Source of the DNA: Caenimonas aquaedulcis
GTDB taxonomy: Bacteria; Pseudomonadota; Gammaproteobacteria; Burkholderiales; Burkholderiaceae_C
Length of the DNA: 64,000 nt
Direction: 5' to 3'
NCBI RefSeq assembly: GCF_015831345.1
Contig: NZ_JADWYS010000001.1
Span: 2,446,618-2,510,617 of the forward strand
Part shown: positions 31,821 through 32,135 of the stretch, piece after piece
Layout: every line of letters starts with the position of its first letter
Position numbering within the stretch: the stretch's first letter is position 1
The notes under the pieces: model-generated
The model's input: only the letters and a program-made list of their open reading frames with translations
Database searches by the model: none
What the model was told of the DNA's origin: nothing
Position numbers and translations under genes: made by a program

Positions 31821-31841
31821 GCGTCCGCGTGAATCGGACGC
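31821..31841 (-). other. Stem-loop in the hemJ leader
   Basis: GCGTCCG and CGGACGC form a perfect seven-base stem with a seven-base loop, 18 bases before the hemJ ATG. It starts immediately after the T-run of the small-RNA terminator. It may affect access to the hemJ start, which lacks a strong ribosome site. Confidence 0.45.
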
Positions 31842-31842
31842 G

Positions 31843-31943
31843 CAAAAAAAACCCCGGCTCAAAAGCCGGGGTGGCAAGCCTTTTTGCTGTCACACATTAA
31901 GGCACCCGCTCAGGGAGGAAAAGCGGGGAGCGGCAAACCGCCC
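31843..31943 (-). ncRNA. Candidate small RNA or attenuated leader between hemB and hemJ
   Basis: A promoter-like TTGTAT, 17 bases, TAAATT (plus 31950-31978) would start an RNA of about 100 nt. The RNA contains GGCGG/CCGC and CCGCT/AGCGG stems; the second presents the loop TTTCCTCCCTG, complementary to a Shine-Dalgarno. It ends in a nine-base-pair stem (ACCCCGGCT/AGCCGGGGT, 31851-31872) followed by eight T. No protein fits. A trans-acting small RNA, or an attenuator controlling hemJ, would both explain it. A hemB-associated RNA motif has been reported in betaproteobacteria; whether this is the same could not be tested. Confidence 0.6.
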
Positions 31944-32135
31944 ACTCGTAATTTAACAAACCGGCCGGTCGGATACAAGCAAAGTGTTGCTTCCGCCTTG
32001 TCCATGAGGGGACATGTCATCCAAATCATCCATAAACCACCGGGATGTCGGGCGCGAAGGCCGCCCGAGCTGACTGCCACCTGATGGGATGGCCACAGAC
32101 CGCACCGGGCTGGGGAATGATGGACAATTTCCGGC
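31944..32135. other. Noncoding upstream region of hemB
   Basis: This stretch holds the -10/-35 of the candidate small RNA (31950-31978), a seven-base stem TCGGGCG/CGCCCGA (32048-32068) and a GACAAT hexamer seven bases before the hemB ATG. A 26-codon minus frame (MDDLDDMSPHG...) is too short and has no supporting features. Confidence 0.5.

Follow-up and report, generated by a model that had tools for sequence, protein, structure and literature searches.

A small RNA of the anti-hemB family between hemJ and hemB in Caenimonas aquaedulcis and its possible relatives near polA and engB

The short interval between hemJ and hemB in Caenimonas aquaedulcis raises the question of whether it holds an RNA gene of its own and, in that case, whether this RNA has any relation to the heme genes at its sides. 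We have studied it in a stretch of 64,000 nucleotides, which we will call the window. A preliminary description, made from the letters alone, had placed in positions 31821..31980 a promoter, several stems, a loop with CCUCCC and a terminator with eight T. All of them are present, on the minus strand, and the compact unit of about 100 nt does end just before hemJ: its 3' end is found about 40 nt ahead of the start codon at 31803. The same description proposed three roles: a trans-acting RNA, an attenuator or a sensor of heme status.

The RNA and its promoter

The preliminary description mentioned a hemB-linked RNA motif and proposed to look for it with Rfam models. The search with cmscan gives a match to RF02837 (anti-hemB) on the minus strand of the window, with 68.8 bits against a gathering threshold of 49.5 and an E-value of 5.3e-14; it spans the whole model, positions 1–81 of 81. 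The window RNA is a member of this already catalogued sRNA family, and its genome has one RF02837 copy above the cut-off. By its layout between hemJ and hemB, with a length near 100 nt, it appears to be an sRNA gene in its own right (Table 1). The hemJ-like gene has 92.7 bits with the NCBIfam HemJ model TIGR00701, which is under its cut-off of 138.05. Each strand of the interval has short mechanically listed ORFs; that the unit encodes no protein is argued from its match to the RNA family and from its structure.

Table 1. Features around the anti-hemB RNA, in positions of the window
Feature	Position	Strand	Basis
hemJ-like gene (UPF0093), downstream neighbour	31378..31803	- (same strand as RNA)	PF03653, 118.8 bits
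Intrinsic terminator, stem 31851-31872 and T tract	31844..31872	-	Sequence, terminator scan, folding
Anti-hemB RNA, portion inside Rfam model RF02837	31844..31929	-	cmscan
Predicted whole sRNA, about 100 nt	31844..31944	-	5' end inferred from position of -10 element
Hairpin 2 (GCCUU...AAGGC)	31878..31903	-	Folding; 95.8% of cells paired
Hairpin 1, CU-rich anti-Shine-Dalgarno-like loop	31905..31927	-	Conservation and pairing
5' hairpin outside the Rfam model	31928..31947	-	Folding
Extended -10 element TGTTAAATT	31950..31958	-	Sequence; pattern TGNTANNNT
-35-like hexamer TTGTAT	31973..31978	-	Read from sequence; unreported by consensus scan
hemB (porphobilinogen synthase), divergent upstream neighbour	32136..33137	+	NF006762, 514.7 bits; PF00490, 466.1 bits

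The RNA has the two hairpins and the terminator of the anti-hemB family. The loop of hairpin 1 is UUUUCCUCCCUGA, and CCUCCC is contained in this hairpin; CCUCCCUGAGC is found in it at 31908–31918, where the plus strand has its complement. The terminator stem (31872–31851) has 9 pairs, 7 of them G-C, and is followed by eight T; a scan for terminator-like sites found 2 against 1.4 in shuffles and is not significant by itself. The 104-nt strand 31844–31947 folds with -46.7 kcal/mol, compared with -34.8 (sd 3.5) in shuffles (z -3.4), and one of 200 shuffles folds as well. The reciprocal model R1, which we discuss in the next section, matches the window over 31843–31949, to be compared with the 105 nt given for the published homologue ncS04 in the available part of PMC5688073.

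Some other features should be mentioned. The short hemJ leader, between the sRNA terminator and hemJ, has an inverted repeat GCGTCCG / CGGACGC at 31821–31841 without a T tract. Two tRNA genes are found in the window, at 51352–51424 on the plus strand and at 55516–55589 on the minus strand. Outside the window the same genome has a second candidate sRNA with a CU-rich loop, G000:C1:1445313-1445402 on the plus strand (L002:1469-1590). It carries CCCCTCCTCCTCC and a terminator, and with 22.5 bits for RF02837 and 21.3 bits for R1 it is below all cut-offs.

The promoter was read by eye as TTGTAT-N17-TAAATT, with a TG ahead of the -10 element; a consensus scan which required 9/12 found none in the region of the window RNA. 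The extended -10 pattern is present upstream of 60 of the 81 copies in the window's family, against 3.7 in shuffles. Judged from these motifs, the promoter of the window RNA looks like a sigma70-type promoter.

Conservation and gene order

RF02837 has matches at E <= 1e-3 in 249 of the 299 genomes of the window's family, 233 of them above the cut-off; judged from records with the same gene order, this family is probably Comamonadaceae. From 150 places listed we picked by hand 80 loci, roughly one for each genus and, in addition, further copies from two genomes (G087 and G156). hemB is found in 68 of them, adjacent to the RNA and on the opposite strand, as in the window, and hemJ in 62, where RNA and hemJ lie on one strand. 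Six loci have hemB alone and 12 have neither gene, so that hemJ is absent from the fetched stretch in 18. Two genomes, G087 (L041, L092, L097) and G159, have six anti-hemB matches each; in G087 they are partly in tandem, away from hemB.

An alignment (A2), which took 62 of 82 copies, gives the covariation check of the stems which the preliminary description had proposed. CCUCCCUGAGC is invariant in all 62 rows. All rows keep the hairpin 1 stem paired, and 28 of them have U-A where the others have C-G. The number of paired cells and the covariation score are above all 500 shuffles; as many pairs changed on both sides occur in 11 of the 500, and further pair types show no excess, with at least as many in 486 of the 500. 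A 26-nt leader folds on average with -8.2 kcal/mol in 81 copies, against -4.7 in shuffles. The 5' hairpin therefore appears to be general, though the Rfam model of 81 positions omits it. In the window's family the CU-rich loop is found in hairpin 1 only; hairpin 2 and the terminator do not have the C-rich loops which are present in copies from the rest of the class. A stand-alone sRNA with an anti-Shine-Dalgarno-like loop, as had been proposed, is supported as a member of RF02837.

When the RF02837 model is applied to the class, 94 of 369 genomes match at E <= 1e-6 (21 above the cut-off) and none of 14 controls does. We picked by hand 40 loci from the places listed, on stretches of 2.4–4.5 kb. 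polA and/or engB are found in 33 of them (engB in 24, polA in 25); one locus, L247, has engB plus hemB. The other seven have no polA, engB or hemB, two of them on stretches ended by a contig end, and hemJ is absent from all 40. NCBIfam models confirm engB in six loci (L241, L247, L251, L271, L273, L275) and polA in three (L241, L273, L279). Wherever both genes are present the RNA reads in the direction of polA, tail to tail with engB (17 copies). The motif CUCCCUG is invariant in 30 of 30 class copies, whose hairpin 1, hairpin 2 and terminator tend to carry C-rich loops. Tandem arrays of two to four sRNA copies beside engB and/or polA are found at L273:1782-2545, L276:2001-2648 and L275:1981-2322; the tandem pairs of L245 and L248 have neither gene but are near a tmRNA gene.

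A further set comes from database records. At least 119 record stretches have the loop pattern; the 80 listed were examined, and L137, L138, L157, L162 and L174 have no recognised copy. Among the matches listed, 31 copies lie between an upstream hemB and a downstream engB in tail-to-tail orientation; they include records from Burkholderia, Paraburkholderia, Caballeronia, Pandoraea, Trinickia, Gallionellaceae and Rhodocyclaceae; records from Variovorax, Ramlibacter, Caenimonas, Hydrogenophaga and Polaromonas, also among those listed, have hemB and hemJ. Together with the class loci, these records give three gene orders: polA-RNA-engB, hemB-RNA-engB and hemB-RNA-hemJ. The last one is that of the window, where the RNA adjoins hemB and hemJ instead of engB or polA; the engB of its genome is far off, at G000:C1:3485280. 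Context counts refer to 195 copies in 200 loci, detected by the loop pattern with up to two substitutions, and loci without a recognised copy drop out of them. A record titled as a Klebsiella pneumoniae MAG (L175) has hemB-RNA-engB as in betaproteobacterial records, which is probably due to contamination or mislabelling.

The promoters differ between these groups. A sigmaE promoter has the form GAACTT...TCTGA. A motif of this type, with one mismatch permitted, is found before 33 of 45 class copies against 0.95 in mononucleotide shuffles, from which all promoter expectations were taken, and before 3 of 80 copies in the window's family against 1.3. The extended -10 motif is found before 2 of 33 class copies, with 1.0 expected. 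Among the matches listed, the sigmaE pattern is passed by 20 of 32 copies of the hemB-engB group: several promoters from outside Burkholderia look clearly sigmaE (GGGAACTTTT...TCTTA), and those of Burkholderia type are ambiguous between sigmaE and sigma70. A sigmaE-type promoter would characterize a polA/engB-linked lineage; the window RNA has the extended -10 element instead.

The relation was examined in the opposite direction with R1, a model for which 30 of the 32 class copies extracted were used, all without linkage to hemB. It finds the window RNA with 55.4 bits and E 7.3e-13 (a rough value, from a short calibration), while the next match in the 64 kb has 13.8 bits. A match to R1 was taken as the mark of the proposed polA/engB-linked sRNA lineage, which is not an Rfam family, and the window RNA carries it. 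In a set of 16 loci R1 finds all 12 anti-hemB copies, ErsA in place (29.9 bits, E 6e-6) and both sX13 in place (26.2 and 24.5 bits, E 5.7e-5 and 1.6e-4); Spot 42, in the same set, gives no match. R1 has no other match at E <= 1 in 88.6 kb; with this and the 13.8 bits of the next match in the window, we rejected the idea that the class matches reflect nothing more than GC-rich terminators. In a search of whole genomes at E <= 1e-4, R1 has matches in 17 of the 299 phylum genomes, and those with ErsA (G459) and sX13 (G310) are not reported; in the reverse direction, the anti-hemB model gives ErsA 14.9 bits (E 0.3). From these results the link of anti-hemB to the polA/engB RNAs of the class is strong and that to ErsA and sX13 is weaker. 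The latter is weak in sequence, and relies on this slight similarity together with the same position: the Rfam hits of ErsA (L281) and sX13 (L282, L283) sit directly after polA, and engB was not found in these three 3.1-kb stretches.

Possible targets and alternative explanations

The explanation which we favour overall, with moderate confidence, is a stand-alone, trans-acting anti-hemB sRNA similar to sX13 and ErsA. Its invariant CU-rich loop would pair with the G-rich ribosome-binding sites (GGGAG, GGAGG) of several mRNAs, probably with the help of Hfq in its host, and would lower their translation, as sX13 and ErsA do. By descent it would be a branch of the sRNA lineage found between polA and engB elsewhere in the class; within the window's family hemJ would have taken the place of engB, and a sigma70-type promoter that of a sigmaE-type one. 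In its wider form we consider this history fairly probable: anti-hemB, sX13 and ErsA would be one ancient, class-wide lineage with a single ancestor, anchored at engB, usually driven by envelope-stress sigma factors and sometimes in tandem. The change from polA to hemB would have occurred in one branch; in the window's family the later changes from engB to hemJ and from a stress to a housekeeping promoter would have turned a stress sRNA into a regulator of ribosome sites with constitutive expression, and the seven loop bases CUCCCUG would have remained fixed.

Targets were searched for in the same genome. The exact complement of the 11-nt loop core is found only in the sRNA gene itself, and near matches are 36, against 58 for the reversed control; this search by long complementarity gave no specific target. 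The word CAGGGAG is found before ATG in 38 places, compared with 12 for the reversed control. No target list can be drawn from it, because any Shine-Dalgarno-like word is frequent before ATG. For the neighbouring genes we used only loci where the protein match begins in the first 6 residues. Start regions have no excess of complementarity to the loop, either in hemB (mean z -0.3 in 45 loci, with a G-rich motif in 4) or in hemJ (mean z +0.2 in 63 loci, with a G-rich motif in 2), so that these tests do not support hemB and hemJ as targets. A role in heme sensing is unsupported, since this excess is absent and the RNA is also found in loci that lack hemJ or hemB. Its heme neighbours are specific to lineages, and ncS04 showed no significant change in the conditions reported in the available part of PMC5688073, low iron included.

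The attenuator of the preliminary description fares differently in its two parts. If the unit were a hemJ leader, with a promoter and partial read-through of the terminator, its main role would be to set hemJ expression. Its strand, shared with hemJ in the 62 loci mentioned above, agrees with this, as does the distance between them: the start of hemJ is at most 60 nt from the terminator in 36 of 96 copies, with a minimum of 23 nt, which leaves little space for a separate promoter. In L081, L069 and other loci of the family hemJ lies only 23–24 nt past the terminator, and in such close-set loci hemJ may need transcripts that start at the sRNA promoter and pass the terminator, or else a promoter within the sRNA gene. 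Read-through into hemJ is thus possible within the window's family. Attenuation is unlikely as the core role, because 18 of the 80 loci do without hemJ, and as a full account of the unit we find it quite unlikely. The constant linkage to a regulated gene expected from an attenuator or a heme sensor is absent, as hemJ accompanies the RNA in 62 of 80 family loci and in none of the 40 class loci. In three further copies hemJ is 744–1466 nt away, in other records among the matches listed engB runs toward the RNA from the side of hemJ, and the loop and stem are conserved regardless.

General titration, which we regard as unlikely, would make the RNA a growth brake without particular targets, as proposed for RF02278: its CCUCC loop would mimic the 3' end of 16S rRNA and compete with ribosomes at many sites. 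The loop does contain CCUCC, and the excess of CAGGGAG before ATG would fit, but this word shares the frequency of any Shine-Dalgarno-like word; the excerpt of PMC5688073 adds that overexpression of a double-hairpin RNA, ncS27, slows growth. Against titration, conservation extends past CCUCC, out to CUCCCUGAGC, and the window RNA has 19.2 bits with RF02278, under its cut-off of 50. Convergence would keep the mechanism and change the history: RNAs linked to hemB and to polA/engB would be unrelated C-rich-loop sRNAs, brought to the vicinity of engB independently. Short GC-rich hairpins with CU-rich loops recur among unrelated sRNAs, ErsA and anti-hemB are little alike, and Spot 42 is unmatched by R1. 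It is nevertheless rather improbable, as 33 of the 40 loci reached with the anti-hemB model, which is blind to context, carry polA and/or engB, R1 finds the window RNA at E 7e-13, and the 31 copies among the matches listed have engB on one side and hemB on the other.

Comparison with known systems

We are dealing with a known sRNA family and a new, testable relationship. In the open-licence literature searched we found no published function for anti-hemB, no tie of anti-hemB to the polA/engB sRNAs and no class-wide relatives traced through the anti-hemB model and the polA/engB location. For annotators, the heme genes beside anti-hemB are neighbours and not evident targets.

The nearest relative is ncS04 of Burkholderia cenocepacia J2315, listed as anti-hemB, which has sequence, structure, terminator and the hemB neighbour in common with the window RNA. 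They differ downstream, where the window has hemJ in place of engB, and the window RNA has a 5' hairpin outside the Rfam model. According to the available part of PMC5688073, ncS04 has 105 nt with its 3' end defined by RACE and dRNA-seq, is detected in Northern blots, is stated to bind Hfq and does not change significantly in seven conditions (biofilm, stationary phase, starvation, glucose medium, osmotic stress, low pH and low iron). In the excerpt of a review, Bc7 co-purified with Hfq and has hemB as its predicted target (PMC6321483); the Rfam name "Burkholderia RNA 7" suggests that Bc7 is the same RNA as anti-hemB/ncS04. Anti-hemB is listed for B. pseudomallei too, in the part of PMC3521395 available. 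Two other groups of short hairpin sRNAs with CU-rich unpaired stretches, RF02278 (Betaproteobacteria toxic small RNA) and ncS025 (RF02869), have a proposed role in covering ribosome sites (PMC5688073, in part). The window RNA was rejected as a member of either: for ncS025 it has 30.1 bits against a cut-off of 46, and for RF02278 it falls short as given above.

The likeness to sX13 of Xanthomonas (RF02232) lies in its place after polA, in hairpins with C-rich loops and in the pairing of these loops with G-rich motifs near start codons, by which sX13 represses mRNAs (excerpt of PMC3771888). However, sX13 has three C-rich loops where the window RNA has one, it is described there as Hfq-independent, the similarity in sequence is weak and the window has no sX13 row in the Rfam search. 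ErsA of Pseudomonas aeruginosa (Pseudomon-1, RF01719), which has no row in the window either, is found between polA and engB and covers ribosome sites with the aid of Hfq (PMC8575079 and PMC6321483, both in part); with Hfq it blocks the ribosome site of algC (PMC6321483, same excerpt). It depends on sigma22 (PMC8575079, in part), as the sigmaE-type promoters of class copies suggest for them, whereas the promoter of the window RNA looks like sigma70-type. These likenesses, read from sequence and position, suggest that anti-hemB belongs, as one branch, to a broader set of sRNAs which cover ribosome-binding sites, as sX13 and ErsA do, and not a heme sensor.

Spot 42 of E. coli K-12 (RF00021) has the order polA-RNA-yihA(engB) and the same orientation as class copies, but its model has 19.8 bits in the window against a cut-off of 80 and R1 does not match it. 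The excerpt of PMC8395346 calls ErsA a functional orthologue of Spot 42, and sX13 is described as sharing its polA locus with both Spot 42 and alpha-r7 (PMC3771888). The authors of sX13 asked whether the polA locus encodes sRNAs elsewhere in bacteria (PMC3771888), a question on which the class-wide polA/engB loci bear. If anti-hemB is the counterpart of sX13 and ErsA, three Rfam families would merge into one lineage in which promoter rewiring could be traced stepwise, and the work on the Spot 42 locus would offer anti-hemB both a mechanism and a test.
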